A DNA stretch of 14,706 bases from positions 1 to 14,706 of the forward strand of contig CAMCNM010000018.1 in NCBI GenBank assembly GCA_945876015.1, in the 5' to 3' direction. Origin of the DNA: Gemmatimonas phototrophica (GTDB lineage: Bacteria > Gemmatimonadota > Gemmatimonadetes > Longimicrobiales > Gaopeijiaceae). Position numbers and translations under genes: made by a program. Numbering within the stretch: position 1 is the stretch's first letter; each line of letters begins with the position of its first letter. The notes under the pieces were generated by a model that worked only from the letters and a program-made list of their open reading frames with translations, was not told where the DNA came from and ran no database searches. Positions 5,807-14,584 of the stretch are shown here, in pieces.

Positions 5807-6871
5807 TCATCCGAGCACCGCGCTCAGGGCTCCGAGCAGCCGCTCCATGTCCGGGTCGGTGATTTCGCCCATCACCGCGATGCGGAAGATCCCCGCGGCG
5901 AGCCGGCCCTGACCGGCGTAGATCACAAAGCCGTTTCGCTTGAGTCCGTCGTGCAGCCTCTCGTAGCTCAAGCCGTGCGGCAGGCGAAACGCGCTCAACA
6001 CGCACGAGCAGTCGCCCTCGGGCAGGAGCGGCTCCACGGCCAGCTCGATCAAGCGGCCGCGCACGTGCTCCATGAGCGCGCGGTAGCGGGCCCGGCGCAC
6101 CGTCCATCCGCCCGCTCCGTCGAGCTCCGTGAGCGCCTCGTCCAGCGCGTAGCACGCCTGCACCGCGGGCGTGAAGAGCGTGTCGCCCGCGTCCTGGGCT
6201 CGGCAGTGCGCGGCCAGATCGAGGTAGAGGCCGCGCCGGGGATCGCTTCCTTCGAGCAGCGATCGCCGCAGCAGCACGAAAGAAACGCCGGGCACGCCGT
6301 GCAGGCACTTGTTCGCGGTGGACGCGCACGCGGCGAGACCGGTGAAGTCGATCTGCTCCGCTCCGAAGCTGCTGACGGCATCCAGCAGCAGCGACGTGCG
6401 GCCGCCGGGGCCGGCGACCGCGAGGTCGTTCAGCCGACCCGAGGTCGTCTCGTGATGCACGAGCGCGATCCGGTGCGCGGGGAGCGAGACCCTCGCCAGC
6501 GCGGCACGTAAACGCGACGGATCCACCGCGTCCTCCCAGCCGTGACGAACCGGGGTGCAGGCGATACGGTGCGCGACGGCGATCTGTGACATGCGCTCGC
6601 CGTAGGCGCCGTTCTCGACCACGACCAGCTCGCCGTCCGCCGGCACCAACGAGCCGAGCATCGCTTCGACCGCCGAGGTGCCCGAGCCGGTCAGCAGCAC
6701 CGCCGCCCACTCCCCCGGATCCAGACCGTAGACCGCGAGCAGCTTCCGGCGAATGCCCGACTGGAGGTCGGAGAACTCGGGCTCGCGGTGGCACAGGTCG
6801 GGGCGGAGCATGGCCTCGCGCACGCGCCTGCTGAGCGTGACCGGACCGGGGTTGAGGAGGATGGTGCTCAC
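5807..6871 (-). CDS. phnW: 2-aminoethylphosphonate:pyruvate transaminase (PhnW-like)
   Basis: This 354-residue class V PLP aminotransferase matches PhnW. The N-terminus [20 protein letters not shown] is typical, as are HREPEFSDL, the phosphate-binding TGSGTSAVEAML (~61-72) and HHETTSG (~139-145). The PLP aspartate is Asp164 in LLDAVSSFGA, and the Schiff-base lysine is Lys188 in STANKCLHGVPG. PhnW interconverts AEP plus pyruvate with phosphonoacetaldehyde plus alanine. Because pepM and ppd sit directly upstream, it is inferred to work in the synthetic direction, producing AEP. The frame is open to 7057, but GTG 6871 is chosen: it overlaps the ppd stop (GTGA) and begins exactly where family sequence begins. 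It is the last gene of the operon. Confidence 0.9.
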   Translation of the reverse strand: MSTILLNPGPVTLSRRVREAMLRPDLCHREPEFSDLQSGIRRKLLAVYGLDPGEWAAVLLTGSGTSAVEAMLGSLVPADGELVVVENGAYGERMSQIAVAHRIACTPVRHGWEDAVDPSRLRAALARVSLPAHRIALVHHETTSGRLNDLAVAGPGGRTSLLLDAVSSFGAEQIDFTGLAACASTANKCLHGVPGVSFVLLRRSLLEGSDPRRGLYLDLAAHCRAQDAGDTLFTPAVQACYALDEALTELDGAGGWTVRRARYRALMEHVRGRLIELAVEPLLPEGDCSCVLSAFRLPHGLSYERLHDGLKRNGFVIYAGQGRLAAGIFRIAVMGEITDPDMERLLGALSAVLG

Positions 6872-8025
6872 GGTGCGATGTGCCGCATGAGCCGCGCCGC
6901 GACATCCTCTGGCACCAGCGCCGGTCGCGGGAGGTTCGGAACGGTTCCAGGACGCGTCTTCAGATGCAGGAAGCGCGGTCCGGGCAGCCCGCGGCTCCCG
7001 CAGACTTCGTCCACGAGCGCGACGTCGTCGCCGCTCACCACGCTCCGGTATCCGCACGCCGCGGCCACCGCGCCGAAGTCCACGCCCGCGCTCACGGTCT
7101 TCTGGGCGCCCGTCGAATCGTAGGCTTCATCGTCGATCACGATGTGGGTGAGGTTGTCGCCGCCGTAGGCGCCCACGGTCGCGAAGTTGCCCATGCGCAT
7201 GAGCGCGGCGCCGTCGCCGTCCACCACGATCACCTCGCGGTCGGGCGCCTGCAGCGCGACCCCGAGCCCTAGCGAGGATACGCACCCCATCGAGCCGACC
7301 ATGTAGAGCTGGTTGGGGCGGTCGGCGAGCGCGCAGAGCTCGCGGCCCGTGTACCCGGTGGTCGCGATCACGACCGAGGAGGCTTCGGGCGACCGATCGA
7401 CGACGCGGCGGAGCGCCTCGTTCCGCGACGCGCGCTCCCCCGGACGACGCCGGAATCCGTCGTGGCGCGTCCTCGGCGCCGGCCCTGCGTGCGCCGGCGC
7501 GGGGGCGCCTCCGAGCAGGCCGGACGGAGCGACCGTGCCCTTCTGCATGACCAGGGCGAACGGACGGCGCTCACCGGCCATGTGGGCCCGCGCCTCCTGG
7601 AGGACTCCGTCGATCGCGCCGGCCTCGGCGGGGAAGTCGCGCCACGGCACCTCCATGGAGTCGAGCAGGCGGGTCGTGATGCGGCCCATGAGCGCGTGCT
7701 GCGGCTCGTCCTGCACGCCCGGCGCCCCGCGGTGCGTGCAGATCAGCAGCACGGGAAGCCGGAACGTCCAGGTGAGCGACGTGAGCGGGCTCACCGCGTT
7801 GCCGAGCCCCGAATTCTGCATCATCGCGACCGCGCGCCCGCCTGCCAGCGCGACCCCGGCCGCGGTAGCGACCGCGTCGCCCTCATTCGCCGAAGCGACG
7901 TACCTCAGCGAGCCGTCGCCAATCACGTAGTCGATGAACGGCGTGAGGAAGGAGCAGGGCACACCGGCGTACGTGCCGAAGCCGAGCGCGCGGGCGCGCT
8001 CGACGAACTCGCGCGCCTCGATCAC
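6868..8025 (-). CDS. ppd: Phosphonopyruvate decarboxylase
   Basis: This 385-residue ThDP enzyme decarboxylates phosphonopyruvate to phosphonoacetaldehyde, pulling the unfavourable PEP mutase reaction forward. The N-terminal PYR domain has [17 protein letters not shown] and the cofactor-activating Glu48 in [16 protein letters not shown]. The C-terminal PP domain has the family signature [16 protein letters not shown], then [15 protein letters not shown], and the ThDP/metal motif [13 protein letters not shown] (268-280). Its partner reads [12 protein letters not shown] (297-308), where relatives usually have an Asn in the DN/NN pair. The length is normal for the family; sulfopyruvate decarboxylase is a related alternative, but the pepM neighbour argues for phosphonopyruvate. 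GTG 8025 is chosen because it overlaps the pepM stop (GTGA); upstream sequence in this frame is antiframe nonsense. The end overlaps phnW the same way. Confidence 0.93.
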
Positions 8026-9692
8026 CCTTCGCCCGCCGCGAACGAGTCGGCGTTCTCGAGATCGCGTAGCGAGTTCACGTCCAGCCACCGACCGGTGATG
8101 TAGTTGACCGAGATCGGCCGGCCGATCTCGACCAGATGGTTGAGCAGGTGGCGGACGCCCAGCTCCGGGAATTTCTCGATGCCGCGCAGGTCGGCCAGCG
8201 CGCTCCGCAGCCACTCCACCCCTTCGCCCTGCGCGCGCAGCAGCCCGATCCAGCGGCCGTCGGCAGCGCGCCCACCCTCCCCCCGCTTTCCGGTGACGCC
8301 CTCGAGCGTCACGGCTTTCTCCCAGACGTCGAGGTCGTCGGGGCGGCTGCAGTATGCCCAGTCGGGAGCGCCGCTCACGCGTGTCTCGTCGGGCGCCGAG
8401 TCCACCACGACCGTGAGCGACGCCGAGCTGGCGAGGAGATCGGCGAGCACGTAGCGGCGGAACAGGAGATCGCCGTAGCAGATCACCGTGTCGGCGGTGA
8501 ACGCGTCCACCGCGCACGCGAGGCTGGCCAGCTCGCCGGTGGTGGCATGATCCGGATTGCTCACTGTGGTGACGCCGGAGACGTCTACCGCGTCCGCGCG
8601 GTAGCCCGCCACCGCGGTGATCGAGTCCACGCCCTCGCGCTTGAACGCGTCCGCGAGCCGGCGCAGGATCGGCCTGCCCGCCACGGAGACCATCATCTTG
8701 GGCCGGTCCGAGGTCAGGTCACCGAGCCCCTTCCCCTCCGTCGCGCCGAGCACCACGGCCGAGCGCTCGACGCGCCGGCTCGCCAGGTAGCGGCGCTCCG
8801 CGCGGTCGAGCTCCTCCTCGCCCTGGAGGCGGAAGATCTCCTGCACGCTGGCGATGCGGTCCTCGACGTCGAGCACCGTGCCGTCCCGCACGATCTGGTT
8901 CGCGGCCAGCTGCATCGCACGGGTCGCGGCGCGAATCAGGTGGTTGGACCAGATCGCGACGCTCACGCCCGCGTTCCGGAAGACCTCGATCGGCGTGCTG
9001 TAGTAGGTGGTGGGCACGATCACGACCGGGGCGCGCCCGTCCCACGCGTGCATGAACGCGAGGATCTCGTCCGGCTGGGTGCGCTTGCTGTGGATCAGGA
9101 TCGCGTCGGCGCCCGCGGCGTGATACGCCTCGGCCCGGCGCAGCGCCTCGGTCAGCCCCCATCCGGCGATCAGCGCCTCGGTGCGCGCCACGATGCAGAA
9201 GTCGGCGTCGCGCTGGCTATCCTTTCCCGCCGCGATCTTGCCGCAGAACTCCTCGACGTCGGCGAGCTTCTGCCGCTCGCCGCGCACGAAGCTGTTCGAC
9301 TTCGGGAAGAGTTTGTCCTCGATGCACACTCCGGCCACGCCGCGCTGCTCGAGCTTCTGCACCAGCCGGCGCATGTTGTTGAAGTCGCCGTAGCCGGTGT
9401 CGCCGTCGAGCAGGATCGGGAGGGTGGTCGCGTCGGTCATGAACTCCAGCATCTCGACCACCTGCGTCCAGCTCGCCTCGTTGTGATCGCGCACGCCGAA
9501 CTGCGCGGACATCGCGAGGCCGCTCGCCCAGATCGCCTTGCAGCCGGCCTCCTCGACGATCCGTGCCGAGAGCCCGTTGTGGGCCTCGAGCAGGATCTCG
9601 AGCTCGGGGGATTGGAGCAGCGCGCGGAGTCGCGACGTGCGACGCTCCGGGGCGCCCTCTCCGGCGGGCATCGGCGTGGGACTAGTGGGCAT
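8022..9692 (-). CDS. pepM: Phosphoenolpyruvate phosphomutase fused to C-terminal nucleotidyltransferase domain
   Basis: This 556-residue fusion has an N-terminal PEP mutase/isocitrate lyase-type barrel (~22-300) with [27 protein letters not shown] (96-106) and [10 protein letters not shown] (125-134). The EDKxxxKxNS signature separates true mutases from related hydrolases and lyases. It converts PEP to phosphonopyruvate, forming the C-P bond. The C-terminal domain (~311-556) is a sugar-1-phosphate-type nucleotidyltransferase with an atypical loop, [20 protein letters not shown]. It also has YGDLLF (406-411) and [14 protein letters not shown] (535-548), which supply the two expected metal aspartates. 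PEP mutases with such a domain are known; the domain is thought to transfer a nucleotidyl group onto the phosphonate, but its substrate here is unproven. The start overlaps the upstream gene by 11 bases; ATG 9671 is an alternative without overlap. Confidence 0.93.
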
Positions 9693-10425
9693 CGATCGCC
9701 GGCAGAACCACGTCGCGCGCGCGCGCGACGTCCTCGGGGAAGTCGATCTCGATCCAGGGCAGGCCGGTGACGTCCTCGACGAAGAAGGCCGCGGGATCGG
9801 CGAGGATCAGGTCACGCACGGCGTCCTCGTAGGGCAGCGCGCGACCCCCCGCGACGAGCATCCGCTCCAGCCGGCCCGCGAGATCGGCCGCCTGCGGCGC
9901 GGCGAAGCGGAAGAAGCCGACCGACTCACCCTGTGTGTCGAAGCGCAGATCGGGCGCCACCTTCTTGCTGAACTCGACGACGCGCCCGTCCGCCACGCAG
10001 ACCTTCACCGGCTCGTCGCCCGGAATGAAGCCACGGTCCATCGCCAGGCAGCTGCCCGAGCGACGGGCGAGCCGACCGAGGATCTCGGGAGCGTAGAGCA
10101 CGTCGGCGTCCATCAAGACGACGCCGCCGCCGTGGCGGAGCGCGCCGCGCATGGTCCAGAGGCTGACGATGCTCCCCTCCCTGAAATCAGGATTGATGAC
10201 CGTGGACACGTGCGCGTCGTACTCGGAGTCGGCGATCTCGCCGAGTACCGTATCCGACTCGTGCCCCACGCAGACGCGGATGTCGTCGATACCGAGGGAG
10301 ACGAGGTTACCGAGATGGCGCTCGAGGAGCGATACACCGCCGAAGCGGAGCAGGCACTTTGGGGCCCGGTGGCCGCTCGGCTCGAGCCGCGCCCCGACAC
10401 CCGCGGCCAGGATGATCGCCTGCAT
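9682..10425 (-). CDS. LicC/PntC-like cytidylyltransferase (predicted CTP:2-aminoethylphosphonate type)
   Basis: This 247-residue NTP transferase has [14 protein letters not shown] then APKCLL (nucleotide-binding loop and catalytic Lys, residues 1-26), the metal-binding VLMDADVLY (103-111), and a C-terminal [13 protein letters not shown] (224-236) that supplies the second metal aspartate. [20 protein letters not shown] resembles CTP:phosphocholine and PntC-type CTP:AEP cytidylyltransferases. As first gene of an AEP-making operon, it is inferred to activate AEP as a CMP ester; a sugar nucleotidyltransferase role is the alternative. The frame is open to 10491, but ATG 10425 is chosen because a good GAAAGGA ribosome site lies 8 bases before it and the family N-terminus begins there. 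No clear promoter is visible on this strand in the 164-base upstream gap. Confidence 0.85.
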
Positions 10426-10526: not shown

Positions 10527-10589
10527 CGGGACCGACCCACCCCGTCGCGCACGGCGTGCCCCGGCGCGCCCCTAGAGAGGCCCCTCGCG

Positions 10590-11726
10590 TTGTCCGTCGA
10601 AGTCGTTCCCGTCCGTGGAAGAAGGGCGTTCTCCCGATTCATCGGCCTCCCCTGGCGCCTGATCGACCGCCGAAAATACCCGCAGTGGGTCCCGCCGCTG
10701 CGCGCTTCGGTGGTCGACAACCTCGACCAGAAGGGGAACCCCTTCTACCGGGAAGCCGACCGCGAACTGTTCCTCGCCTGGGACCGGGGGCGTGTCGTGG
10801 GCCGCATCGCGGCAATCGAGAATCGCCGGCACAACGCGTTCCACGAGGACCGGGTCGGCTTCTTCGGCTTCTTCGAGTCGGTGGACGACGTCGAGGTGGC
10901 AGCCGCGCTCCTGAACGCCGCGTCGAGCTGGCTGGCCGCGCGCGGGCTCGACTGCATGCGCGGGCCGGTGAGCCCCTCGACCAACCACGAGTGCGGGCTC
11001 CTCGTGGACGGGTTCGAGTCCCACACCGCGTTCATGACCACCTGGAATCCCCCGTACTACGAGCGCCTGCTCGAGAGCGCGGGGCTGGCCAAGGCCAAGG
11101 ATCTGCTCGGGTTCTGGATTCCGTTCGACGGGAGCTTCAAGCTGCCCGATCGCTGGCATCGTCTGGCCGACAGAGCGCGGGGGAGCAGGGAGTTCAGCTT
11201 CCGGCTGGTGGACCGGTCCAACTATCAGCGCGACTCGGATCGCGCGTGGGACGTCTACAACGGGGCGTGGGAGAAGAACTGGGGCTTCGTCCCGATGAGC
11301 CACGCCGAGTTCAACCACATGTCGGACATGCTCCGGCTCCTGCTGCTCGACGAGTTCGTGCACTTCGTCGAGGTCGGCGATCAGCCGGTAGGGCTCGCCA
11401 TCTCTCTGCCCGATTACAACCTCACGTTGAAGCGCGTCCCCGGCGGCCGGCTGCTCTTCGCGCTGCCCATGCTCCTGTGGGACCGCAGTCGGATCAGGCA
11501 CGGGCGCGCGATGATGCTGGGCGTGAAGGACGGCTACCGCGCCCGCAGCATCTATCCGCTCATGATCGACGAAGCGATTCGGCGCGCGTACGCGTATGGG
11601 GCGGTGGGCACCGAAGCGTCGTGGATCCTCGAGGACAACACCAGGATGCTGGTCTTCCTGGAAGAGGGCGGGCTCAAACCTCACAAACGGTGGCGCATCT
11701 ACGACCGCGCCATCCCGCTCGTCTAG
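10590..11726 (+). CDS. GNAT-fold N-acyltransferase-like protein (YghO-like)
   Basis: This is a protein of about 378 residues from TTG 10590. The N-terminal half has DNLDQKGNPFYREADRELFLAW and GRVVGRIAAIENRRHN (a GNAT beta-strand region). GPVSPSTNHECGLLVDGF (~125-142) follows, then WNPPYYERLLESAGLAKAKD, and a second GNAT-like unit ends with YPLMIDEAIRRAYAYGAVGTEASWILEDN. This arrangement is that of uncharacterised YghO-like acyltransferase-fold proteins; no substrate is known. The frame is open from GTG 10446, but TTG 10590 fits better: AGAGAGG lies 9 bases before it, a promoter candidate lies between the two sites, and the upstream 48 codons look non-coding. It is divergent from the phosphonate operon. 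Its stop shares a CTAG with the stop of the convergent Omp85-like gene. Confidence 0.8.
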   Translation: MSVEVVPVRGRRAFSRFIGLPWRLIDRRKYPQWVPPLRASVVDNLDQKGNPFYREADRELFLAWDRGRVVGRIAAIENRRHNAFHEDRVGFFGFFESVDDVEVAAALLNAASSWLAARGLDCMRGPVSPSTNHECGLLVDGFESHTAFMTTWNPPYYERLLESAGLAKAKDLLGFWIPFDGSFKLPDRWHRLADRARGSREFSFRLVDRSNYQRDSDRAWDVYNGAWEKNWGFVPMSHAEFNHMSDMLRLLLLDEFVHFVEVGDQPVGLAISLPDYNLTLKRVPGGRLLFALPMLLWDRSRIRHGRAMMLGVKDGYRARSIYPLMIDEAIRRAYAYGAVGTEASWILEDNTRMLVFLEEGGLKPHKRWRIYDRAIPLV

Positions 11727-13495
11727 AAGCTGTCCGGACCGAGCCCGAGCCGGTGGCTCCGGACCGCGTCGGGCGTGGTGAAGCCGGCGCGCAGCCGGTT
11801 GAGCTCGAACGTCACGCGGAAGATCGGCGAACCCTGCGCTCCCGGCCCCACGGGGAAGACGATGTCGGGCCGCCAGACGTTGCGGCTCCCAGCCGGGAAC
11901 GCGATGCGAAGCCCGAAGCCGGCAGCGGCCTTCCAACCCGAGTCGGTCCCGAACGGGACGTCGCCGGGCCAGACGCGTCCGAGGTCGGCGAACAGCGTGG
12001 CCCCGAGGTCGAAGGCGTTCTGGGGCATGCGCGGGAAGGTGATGCGGTCCTCGACCACGAAGAGCGCCTGCCGGCCCCCGGGAAAGCGGTCGTTCCCGAG
12101 CGATCGCACGCCCTCCCTCCCGCCCAGCGTGAGCTGATAGGGAAGCTGGGTTCGCCAGCCTCCCGCTCCCGAGGCGCGCAGAAAGAGGATCTGGCCGGGG
12201 ATCCCGCGGACGTACGTCACGAATTCGGCTTCCGCGAGCAGATCCTTCCACTCCCCCATCTCGTGCCGACTTTCCGCGGTGAGGCCTCCGTGGAGCAGCA
12301 GCGGACCGGTGAGCAGGCCCCAGCTCCCATGCACGCGGCCGTAGAAGTCGTGCAGCGCCACGGCGCCACTCGGCATAAGCACGGGCACGCTCTTTCCGAC
12401 CGTCCCGCCGAGGAAGAACCCGAGGCTCGCGAGCTGCTCGTCGCGCACCGCGTCGAGCCCTTCGATCGTCTCGTAGCTATAGCGGCGAATACCGGCGTGC
12501 ACGCTGAGGCGAGTCACCGCCCCCGAGGCGCTCTGCCGACCGACCGATTCGACCAGCGGCCCGGGCGGCGCGAAACGCTCGTCGAACTTGCCTTCGTACG
12601 CGACCTGGGCTTCTTCGGGCAGGTACGATTGCCGGGTGAGGCTGCCGCCGAGGACGAGCGAGGAGCCGGGATCGCCCGCGCGCGCCGCCGCGGAGATCTC
12701 GAGCGCCTGCACGCGCATCGCCACGAGAACATGGGAGTAACCCTCCGCACCGTCGGTCGCGTACGCGAACAGCGCCGGATAGGAGCTGAACGCCTCGCGG
12801 GCGGAAACCCGGCCGACATCGCCCGCGAACGGATGATCCACGGCTTCGGAGAACGCCGTCCCGTCCGGGGCGCTCGCGATCCGGAAGGAGGCGCTCGTGC
12901 GTTGGAAGACGCTCGGCACCGACAGGCTGAACGATTTGCTACGCTGCTCCAGCCTCTGGTAGCGCGCTGCCTCGACGAACAGGCCACGGCCCAGGAAGTT
13001 CTGCTCGGTGAAGCGGAAGCTCTCGAGGTTCAGGCCCTCGTCGTACGTGATGCCGAGATCGCCCTTCGTGCTCCACTGGTCGCGAGTTTCGACGCGCACG
13101 ACCTTTCCGCCCACGCTATCGTCCTGGACGAGAACGCGCGCGTTCGCGATGAACGAGTGGCGCTCCAGAAGCCGCGGGGAGTCGGTCGCGAGCAGGGGGT
13201 CGAAGCAGTCGCCTTCCTCGAACAGGAGCTCGCCGCGGATGAAGCCGGGCCGGGTCCGGACGTGCAGGTGGTTGGCCATCCGGAAGCCCCAACCGACGAT
13301 GCCGGTAGGGGACTGGCCCGGGGGGCCCAACCCGCCGTTGTCGATGTCGATGCGCGAGATTCGACCCTCGGGGCAGACCTCGGCCTGGGCGACGGTCGTC
13401 TGAGCGGCCGAAGGATGGACGATCCCCAGTACGGCGACCAACGCCAGGAGGACACCGGTGGCGGCACTTCTCGGGATGCATAGGCGGGCGTTCAC
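11723..13495 (-). CDS. Omp85/BamA-TamA-like outer-membrane barrel protein
   Basis: The protein is 590 residues from GTG 13495. It has a signal peptide (AATGVLLALVAVLGIVHPSAAQ, cleaved near residue 31-32). A single POTRA-like segment (~43-139) follows: CPEGRISRIDIDN, then RPGFIRGELLFEEGDCFDP and LLERHSFIANARVLVQD. A long region of alternating hydrophobic strands forms the predicted 16-strand barrel. Near residue ~480, GGREGVRSLGNDRFPG aligns with the conserved loop-6 motif of Omp85 barrels, and the chain ends in Phe as outer-membrane barrels often do. With one POTRA-like unit it is much shorter than BamA, so it is more likely a TamA/TpsB-like or lineage-specific transporter than BamA. GTG 13495 is chosen because the signal peptide starts there; a longer frame would run into the divergent epimerase gene. 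The Shine-Dalgarno sequence is weak. Confidence 0.85.
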   Translation of the reverse strand: MNARLCIPRSAATGVLLALVAVLGIVHPSAAQTTVAQAEVCPEGRISRIDIDNGGLGPPGQSPTGIVGWGFRMANHLHVRTRPGFIRGELLFEEGDCFDPLLATDSPRLLERHSFIANARVLVQDDSVGGKVVRVETRDQWSTKGDLGITYDEGLNLESFRFTEQNFLGRGLFVEAARYQRLEQRSKSFSLSVPSVFQRTSASFRIASAPDGTAFSEAVDHPFAGDVGRVSAREAFSSYPALFAYATDGAEGYSHVLVAMRVQALEISAAARAGDPGSSLVLGGSLTRQSYLPEEAQVAYEGKFDERFAPPGPLVESVGRQSASGAVTRLSVHAGIRRYSYETIEGLDAVRDEQLASLGFFLGGTVGKSVPVLMPSGAVALHDFYGRVHGSWGLLTGPLLLHGGLTAESRHEMGEWKDLLAEAEFVTYVRGIPGQILFLRASGAGGWRTQLPYQLTLGGREGVRSLGNDRFPGGRQALFVVEDRITFPRMPQNAFDLGATLFADLGRVWPGDVPFGTDSGWKAAAGFGLRIAFPAGSRNVWRPDIVFPVGPGAQGSPIFRVTFELNRLRAGFTTPDAVRSHRLGLGPDSF

Positions 13496-13543
13496 GGCCA
13501 GGAAGTACCGGCCAGCGGCGTTGGGGCGCAAGCGCGCGTGACC

Positions 13544-14584
13544 ATGTTGCCTCAGTCCGCGCGCGTGTTCGTTACGGGCGGAACCGGCCTCGTCGGATCG
13601 CACGTGGCCACCCAGCTGGTATGCCTGGGCAATCCGGTGCGCGCGCTCCATCGCGCCGACTCGGACGTGACCTACGTCGCGGGCCTCGGCTGCGAGCTCG
13701 TGGTCGGCGACACGCGAGACGAGATCGAAACGCTGGCCGCCGCGATGGCAGGATGCGACGCGGTGGTGCACACGGCCGCGGTGACGTACGTCAAGCTGCC
13801 CTGGGAGAAGGTCCGGGAGATCAATGTTGGGGGGACGGAGCGGGTTATGAGAGCAGCCGCGCGCGCCGGCGTGAAGTCGGTCGTGCACGTCTCTTCGGTC
13901 GCCGTGCACGGGGGCCGCCCCGGCCGCTCCGACGAATCGTCCCCGACGGACGCCCCGCTCCTTCCCCGCGAGCTCTACGCGCGCTCGAAGCGGGAGGCCG
14001 AAGCGGTCGTGCACGCCACTGCGCGTGAGCTGGGCCTCTCCGCCACGATCCTCCGTCCGGCTGCCGTGTACGGCGAGCGCGACCGGCTCTTCACGCCGAC
14101 CGTGGTGAGGACGCTCCGATTGCCCGTGCAGTTCCTCCTGGGCGACGGACACGGCACGATCGCGGCGGTCTACGCGGGGAACGTGGCGGACGCGGTGGTG
14201 ACGGCGCTCGGCGCGACGGCCCCCTCACCAGGCGCTCGGGCGCAAGGCGCCCGGATCTTCGACTTCGGCGCGGACAACCCGCTCGACCAGCGCCAGCTCT
14301 ACACCGCGCTCACGCGCGCGCTCGAGGTGCCCTTCCGACCGGCTCCCCTGCCCGGAGCGATGGTCCTCGCGGCCGCGCGCATCGCGGACGCCATCGGCCT
14401 CCGCATCCCCGGCGCGCACGAGCTGCCGCTCCCGCGCACCGTGCGCCTCGCGATCGGGCCCAACCCGTACGGCTCGGAGAAGATCCGCGCGGAGCTGGGC
14501 TGGTCGCCTCCGTTCTCGCTGGATGAGTCGCTCGAGCGCACCGCGCGCTGGGTGGCGCGCGAGCGTCGCTCGTTCGGGATCTGA
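13544..14584 (+). CDS. NAD(P)-dependent epimerase/dehydratase (extended SDR)
   Basis: This extended short-chain dehydrogenase/reductase has about 346 residues. Near the N-terminus VFVTGGTGLVGSHVA gives the TGxxGxxG dinucleotide-binding motif. The rest of the family pattern follows: CDAVVHTAAVTYVK, INVGGTERVMRAA, VHVSSVAVHG, the catalytic YARSK (YxxxK), then ILRPAAVYGERD. The C-terminal part (NPYGSEKIRAELGWSPPFSLDESLERT) is typical of sugar or sterol-type epimerase/dehydrogenases. The substrate cannot be fixed: nucleotide-sugar epimerase, dihydroflavonol/3-beta-hydroxysteroid dehydrogenase-like and carotenoid-related enzymes share this layout. ATG 13544 and GTG 13538 are both in frame; the ribosome site is weak for both. 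It is divergent from the Omp85-like gene with a gap of only about 48 bases. Confidence 0.9.
   Translation: MLPQSARVFVTGGTGLVGSHVATQLVCLGNPVRALHRADSDVTYVAGLGCELVVGDTRDEIETLAAAMAGCDAVVHTAAVTYVKLPWEKVREINVGGTERVMRAAARAGVKSVVHVSSVAVHGGRPGRSDESSPTDAPLLPRELYARSKREAEAVVHATARELGLSATILRPAAVYGERDRLFTPTVVRTLRLPVQFLLGDGHGTIAAVYAGNVADAVVTALGATAPSPGARAQGARIFDFGADNPLDQRQLYTALTRALEVPFRPAPLPGAMVLAAARIADAIGLRIPGAHELPLPRTVRLAIGPNPYGSEKIRAELGWSPPFSLDESLERTARWVARERRSFGI

Follow-up and report, generated by a model that had tools for sequence, protein, structure and literature searches.

The question raised by the four-gene phosphonate operon of contig CAMCNM010000018.1 (Gemmatimonas phototrophica, assembly GCA_945876015.1) is which of its two nucleotidyltransferase-type domains of family PF12804 activates the product, 2-aminoethylphosphonate (AEP), and what the other one does. 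The window analysed is the entire 14.7 kb contig (14,706 nucleotides) of a 2.0 Mb, 73%-complete genome. In order, the minus strand encodes a separate PF12804 nucleotidyltransferase, a phosphoenolpyruvate (PEP) mutase, PepM, with a PF12804 domain fused to its C-terminus, Ppd and PhnW; all reading frames, the 11-base overlap and the two GTGA overlaps described in the original prediction were recovered. The cluster is probably a Pnt-type operon whose separate gene makes the cytidine monophosphate (CMP) derivative CMP-AEP; judged by its residues and modelled fold, the fused domain is most likely not an AEP cytidylyltransferase but a non-catalytic or repurposed module.

For the operon we infer the following activities and order of steps: PepM would convert PEP to phosphonopyruvate, Ppd would convert this to phosphonoacetaldehyde, the PhnW-type enzyme would aminate the latter to AEP, and the separate nucleotidyltransferase would join cytidine triphosphate (CTP) and AEP into CMP-AEP, an activated form ready to be donated in a later step. 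PepM membership was assigned from PF13714, the EDKX5NS motif and a TIGR02320 (PEP_mutase) score of 384.8 bits (cut-off 319.55), all found in the window protein; the predicted ten-residue mutase signature is present, and the PepM half matched the mussel PEP mutase 1m1b with an E-value of 1.6e-120. Ppd exceeded the TIGR03297 cut-off (412 against 312.5 bits). The PhnW-type protein scored 346.7 bits with TIGR03301 (PhnW-AepZ), 14 bits below the cut-off of 360.8, which counts against its assignment; its best PDB matches are AEP:pyruvate transaminases, and the predicted Lys188 aligns with a lysine of the solved AEP transaminase that matches best. Despite the missed cut-off, K188 and these matches point to an AEP transaminase (AEPT)-like product. 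By inference, the family scores and the structure matches of PepM and the transaminase support well the proposed route from PEP to AEP.

The separate enzyme scored 49.8 bits with PF12804 (Pfam cut-off 27), and PntC ranked first for it by profile and by predicted fold. In Foldseek PntC led only slightly, with the inositol-1-phosphate enzyme 4mnd close behind. The metal ligands and the catalytic Arg, Lys and Lys of Treponema denticola PntC match this protein, with R13, K23 and K154 equivalent to Arg15, Lys25 and Lys153 (the last pairing is uncertain by one residue), and E200 corresponds to Glu196, an acid that contacts the AEP amine. For the other such acid, Glu104, the protein has D106, like the Asp of LicC. 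Compared with the strict signature GXG(T/S)RX4-8PK, the protein reads G-V-G-A-R-X8-P-K, keeping the Arg and the PK pair but with Ala for T/S; this Ala and D106 count against the assignment. Judged by its profile, its structure and the majority of its catalytic residues, PntC is nevertheless the best match for this protein, and the predicted activation of AEP as CMP-AEP by this product is, by inference, well supported.

The fused domain scored 45.6 bits with PF12804 (same cut-off) and is modelled with the PntC fold, its closest solved structure being T. denticola PntC (6PD1/6PD2). In the window it has Gly at the Arg15 place, and Tyr106 and Val213 at the places of the AEP-amine acids. The catalytic Arg was found in none of the 58 sampled fused domains, compared with 59 of the 60 separate enzymes; the Glu104 place is acid-free in 58/58 and the Glu196 place in all 57 domains with a letter there. 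Because the PntC residues that bind the leaving pyrophosphate and the AEP amine are missing, the fused domain is most likely not an AEP cytidylyltransferase, and the nucleotidyltransferase role originally claimed for it is doubtful. All 43 first-set fused domains fell into a single clade in the tree, and their conservation, measured as entropy, equals that of the separate-enzyme set; simple decay of the fused domain was therefore rejected. We infer that the domain is a PntC paralogue retained as a conserved non-catalytic or repurposed module, probably for ligand binding or assembly, which could for instance bind CTP or a CMP-phosphonate and regulate or organise PepM. Within its clade the window domain deviates, with LGATEG in place of the usual LAASRG (8697-8750), and four fusions of its own phylum (L034-L037) have lost the PK lysine (PL) and carry an insert in the GxGxR region.

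The 58 fusions comprise 43 of the first set and 15 of a Methylomirabilota hold-out, and the 60 separate enzymes include eight in-locus hold-out enzymes and ten unlinked ones drawn from both sets (one a fragment). Of the 28 matches of one search, 20 regions were fetched, G410 was L051 itself and seven were left out; L120 (no PepM past the filter), L053, L054 and L059 (contig ends) and domains of at most 200 residues were left out. For the hold-out, 95 Methylomirabilota genomes were searched and 18 matched, one of them already in the first set; a C-terminal PF12804 domain was present in 15 of the 17 new matches. These 15 fused domains lack the Arg without exception, with Tyr (nine) or Phe (six) at the Glu104 place and Phe (eight), Leu (six) or Ile (one) at the Glu196 place; the Arg is present in all eight in-locus and all ten unlinked separate enzymes. 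The totals exclude a weak second match in L190, of 35.5 bits. As a marker the Arg was used instead of the strict signature, which was rejected since even the looser pattern GxGxRx4-10PK, found in 39/42 first-set separate enzymes, occurs in only 3/8 in-locus hold-out ones. Loss of the second metal ligand (E226, kept in 13/58 fused domains) was also rejected as a universal feature, since nine of the 15 hold-out fusions keep it.

A separate PF12804 enzyme was found in the fetched locus of 43/58 fusions (35 of the first set and eight of the hold-out). In L106 it lies in a second operon, homologous to Burkholderia-type clusters, and in L111 about 12 kb from the fusion. Ten PepM loci without the C-terminal domain were seen, four of them with a separate enzyme; the fused/separate count gave P of about 1.2e-5, in a table that counts unlinked cases and ignores kinship, and was not used as proof. 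The loci L107 (4087-10072) and L108 (3994-8400) gave no PhnW match; beside the PepM fusion and Ppd, an Fe-alcohol dehydrogenase and a cytidylyltransferase of family PF01467 take the places of the transaminase and PntC. This arrangement resembles a hydroxyethylphosphonate form of the pathway; a flippase-like gene in L107 scores slightly below the Pfam cut-off. Genome G529 (L107 and L115) holds two clusters, one of AEP type and one hydroxyethylphosphonate-like, with a fused PepM in each.

Several observations weigh against a fused domain without an activating role. The metal Asp is kept in 58/58 fused domains and the PK Lys in 51/58, and a motif of their own is conserved, LAAS or a similar stretch being followed by Arg in 32/43 (by E in the window), so the domain might catalyse some other reaction. 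In eight fusions (L037, L113 and L181-L186) the only separate enzyme is unlinked, and three at contig ends (L038, L109 and L195) could not be judged. The best cases against are the Methylomirabilota fusions L181-L186, where the locus itself yielded no separate cytidylyltransferase (the L183 contig measures only 4.9 kb); each genome carries the enzyme elsewhere, stop-split in one. However, 21 of 35 PepM-free Methylomirabilota genomes (picked from 77; at least 160 bits) also carry such an enzyme, which weakened the proposal that each fusion is accompanied by a separate enzyme of its own; for this reason the eight unlinked cases were not counted as support. Both E226 and D228 are kept in 9/15 Methylomirabilota fusions, whose PepM parts lack EDKX5NS and score below the TIGR02320 cut-off, and all eight hold-out fusions with an adjacent separate enzyme belong to these nine. 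The sampled rows are moreover related, some nearly identical (L065/L103 and L107-L109), so that the counts are of non-independent events. The nine PepM-like parts (L189-L197), fused to a variant PF12804 domain and accompanied in the locus by a separate nucleotidyltransferase in eight, are perhaps not mutases, and these proteins possibly catalyse a different reaction.

The kept Asp and Lys, the conservation equal to that of the separate enzymes, and the six Methylomirabilota loci without a linked alternative (neighbours scanned for L184 and L185) would fit two active domains, with AEP as the substrate of the separate one and a different substrate or nucleotide used by the fused one through its variant motif; Rice et al. 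2019 (PMC6697681) also count such fusions as nucleotidyltransferases in the passages concerned. This is rather unlikely, as the Arg is absent from 58/58 fused domains and the R15A variant of T. denticola PntC is described there as retaining <10% activity; E226 is kept in few fused domains, and the PK Lys is lost too in the four own-phylum fusions. A further proposal, made tentatively and with somewhat less than even confidence, takes the fused domain for a pseudo-cytidylyltransferase: one old paralogue of PntC that no longer catalyses the AEP-CTP reaction and instead binds CTP or a CMP-phosphonate, either for docking or as a feedback sensor. In pathways of both the AEP and the hydroxyethylphosphonate type it would thereby control the first step, which is thermodynamically unfavourable. 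GMPPA, a paralogue without catalytic activity, acts as a product sensor, and chains of the GMPPA/GMPPB complex are among the structure-search matches (7d72 and 7d74). This pair offers a works-like model only, a sensor of nucleotidyltransferase fold beside an active enzyme, compared at the level of the shared fold.

The substrate of the separate enzyme and the end product were also weighed. Phosphocholine, inositol-1-phosphate or a sugar-1-phosphate could be activated instead, to serve as acceptor or co-head-group: the best NCBIfam match is an inositol-1-phosphate cytidylyltransferase, below threshold (73.9 bits, cut-off 580), single-sequence phmmer places 2xme, an inositol-1-phosphate enzyme, first rather than PntC, and D106 stands at the Glu104 place, where LicC has Asp. 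We regard this as quite improbable given that profile and fold rank PntC first (by a small Foldseek margin over 4mnd), that the gene overlaps pepM, that E200 matches Glu196, and that such a gene lies in the locus of 43/58 fusions. As the destination of AEP, a surface decoration is plausible. A soluble phosphonate natural product in place of a lipid or surface decoration would agree with the window itself, where no transferase, flippase or glycosyltransferase was recognised by scans of 10 proteins or by two further searches, one with a pattern for CDP-alcohol phosphotransferases and one with the transferases of related clusters; squalene-hopene cyclase, which belongs to one of the candidate lipid settings, turned up in 0/11 own-phylum genomes tested. 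It is nevertheless improbable, since CMP activation fits transfer and related cores, many of them in loci cut short, lie near a CDP-alcohol phosphotransferase (7/36 comparison loci, and also L103-L105 and the second operon of G738) or a glycerophosphotransferase-like gene (9/36, Lysobacterales-type). Three matches to CDP-alcohol phosphotransferases occur in the window genome, each of them on a contig other than the window.

The coordinates of the operon features are given in Table 1.

Table 1. Features of the phosphonate operon in the window (positions of the whole contig).
Feature	Coordinates	Strand	Assignment or remark
Separate PF12804 nucleotidyltransferase, 247 aa, PntC-like	9682..10425	-	Predicted CTP:2-aminoethylphosphonate cytidylyltransferase
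Separate-enzyme signature (18 residues), residues 6-23	10357..10410	-	R13 and K23 = R15 and K25 of T. denticola PntC
PepM carrying PF12804 at its C-terminus, 556 aa	8022..9692	-	TIGR02320, PF12804, mussel PepM 1m1b
PepM signature (10 residues)	9291..9320	-	
Fused PF12804 domain, residues 301-556	8025..8792	-	Predicted PntC fold without catalytic Arg and AEP-amine acids
Altered signature of fused domain (18 residues)	8697..8750	-	R15 position without Arg
Ppd, phosphonopyruvate decarboxylase, 385 aa, GTG start	6868..8025	-	TIGR03297
PhnW/AEPT-type aminotransferase, 354 aa, GTG start, K188	5807..6871	-	TIGR03301 score, PDB matches
Nucleotidyltransferase/pepM overlap, 11 bases	9682..9692	-	
pepM/ppd overlap GTGA, 4 bases	8022..8025	-	
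ppd/phnW overlap GTGA, 4 bases	6868..6871	-	

The operon is of a published type (Pnt for phosphonyl tailoring, CMP-AEP; PMC6697681) and not new, in a little-known lineage; the new point, going by its residues, is that the PepM-fused domain does not appear to be a PntC. As described in the relevant passages of PMC6697681, Pnt clusters likewise combine ppm, ppd, aept and a LicC-like cytidylyltransferase, and the three clusters of Fig. 3c have a Ppm-fused nucleotidyltransferase with another one or two genes off. The same source reports PF12804 fused to about a third of Ppm enzymes, without specifying in these passages which fusions are C-terminal, and takes the fusions as an argument for nucleotidyl activation being the dominant route in phosphonate biosynthesis. 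The two PntC enzymes shown there to make CMP-AEP, the LicC-sized monomer Ari1348 and the transaminase-fused Tde1415, are not Ppm-fused PF12804 domains, unlike the fused domain of the window. In T. denticola PntC-AEPT (6PD1/6PD2) PntC is fused to the transaminase, whereas the PntC-like enzyme of the window stands alone; compared with that PntC, the PepM-fused domain lacks equivalents of R15, Glu104 and Glu196. Fom1 of fosfomycin biosynthesis also joins PepM to a nucleotidyltransferase-type domain, which according to PMC6697681 is N-terminal, belongs to PF01467 and acts on hydroxyethylphosphonate; the fused domain of the window is instead C-terminal, belongs to PF12804 and is without the PntC catalytic residues. 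Keyword searches of the PMC6697681 main text gave no remark on altered residues in Ppm-fused PF12804 domains, and a literature search by title and abstract gave, among the matches listed, no other paper on PepM-fused PF12804 domains. The flavophos cluster (PMC12871164) was set aside, as no nucleotidyltransferase or cytidylyl terms occur in the part of the text covered.

In the own-phylum search 9/395 genomes, the window genome included, matched the fusion at 1e-60 or better; the two other genomes of the same genus gave no match at this threshold. The scan of named genomes gave 23 fusion loci, mostly from Lysobacterales and other gammaproteobacteria, with some from betaproteobacteria and one from Methylomirabilota. 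Similar gene sets occur in gamma-, beta- and alphaproteobacteria, Methylomirabilota and other members of the own phylum, a recurrence far beyond chance. A nucleotidyltransferase gene lies directly upstream of pepM in 21/23 loci, as in the window; L052 has two downstream of phnW, L038 has none in the 3.3 kb upstream of pepM, and in the nearest own-family copy (G123, L031) the gene follows phnW. The window PepM is 76% identical to that of the Methylomirabilota locus L038, 74% to that of Mycetohabitans and 69% to that of G123; identity is 58-63% for G297, G307 and G036, and for four further class-level copies it is 44-47%. In the tree its fused domain clusters, at 100/100, with those of Methylomirabilota, beta- and gammaproteobacteria, away from that of G123. 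Transfer of the gene set between phyla would be the natural reading, and the four-gene core seems to have been passed on and combined with different downstream genes. In an empty-site test with 14 relatives' loci (1.5 kb on each side), no flanking gene was matched except the one for the 10572-11726 protein, and no empty site came to light. PepM-family matches with 33-34% identity were also seen in plasmids of about 8.7 kb (H118 and H119) of the insect symbiont Candidatus Stammera capleta.

Upstream of the operon, the 384-aa protein at 10572-11726 has no Pfam or NCBIfam match; relatives at 1e-60 were found in 19/34 genomes searched, its own included, and it also lies at most 8 kb from pepM in L034 and L035. 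An Omp85-like protein (11723-13480) and an SDR-type (short-chain dehydrogenase/reductase) epimerase (13538-14584), whose best NCBIfam match is HpnA below threshold (143.6 bits, cut-off 367.65), are located near the contig end.

The related loci differ in the genes added to the core. Those of the phosphotransferase type often add a gene for a 2-oxoglutarate-Fe(II) oxygenase or a PhyH-like protein, together with one for a protein of the lysylphosphatidylglycerol-synthase type. Lysobacterales-type pnt loci (L050:13655-18879; also L041, L045, L046, L049, L055, L057, L058 and L060) add PEMT/ICMT-like genes (not seen in L045) and CDP-glycerol glycerophosphotransferase-like genes; contigs that extend far enough also show a YidC-like gene and, in most cases, a PhyH dioxygenase. 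In L051:231-20103 and L067:1546-19599 (Roseomonas) the core lies amid hopanoid-type genes (MMPL transporter, HpnH, HpnG, dxs and VacJ) and CDP-alcohol phosphotransferases, with a squalene-hopene cyclase in Roseomonas, which suggests an AEP-bearing lipid at these two loci. Linkage of pepM to a hopene cyclase gene in Roseomonas has already been reported, in a passage of PMC8776678. For the window a hopanoid link was rejected, PF13243 being found in none of the 11 own-phylum genomes (the window genome, G000, is itself 73% complete).

If the C-terminal fused domain is not an activating enzyme, the count of PF12804 fusions among PEP mutases would need to be split, and the separate gene would be the better marker of CMP activation. 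Moreover, the control of phosphonate flux would become directly testable with one purified protein.

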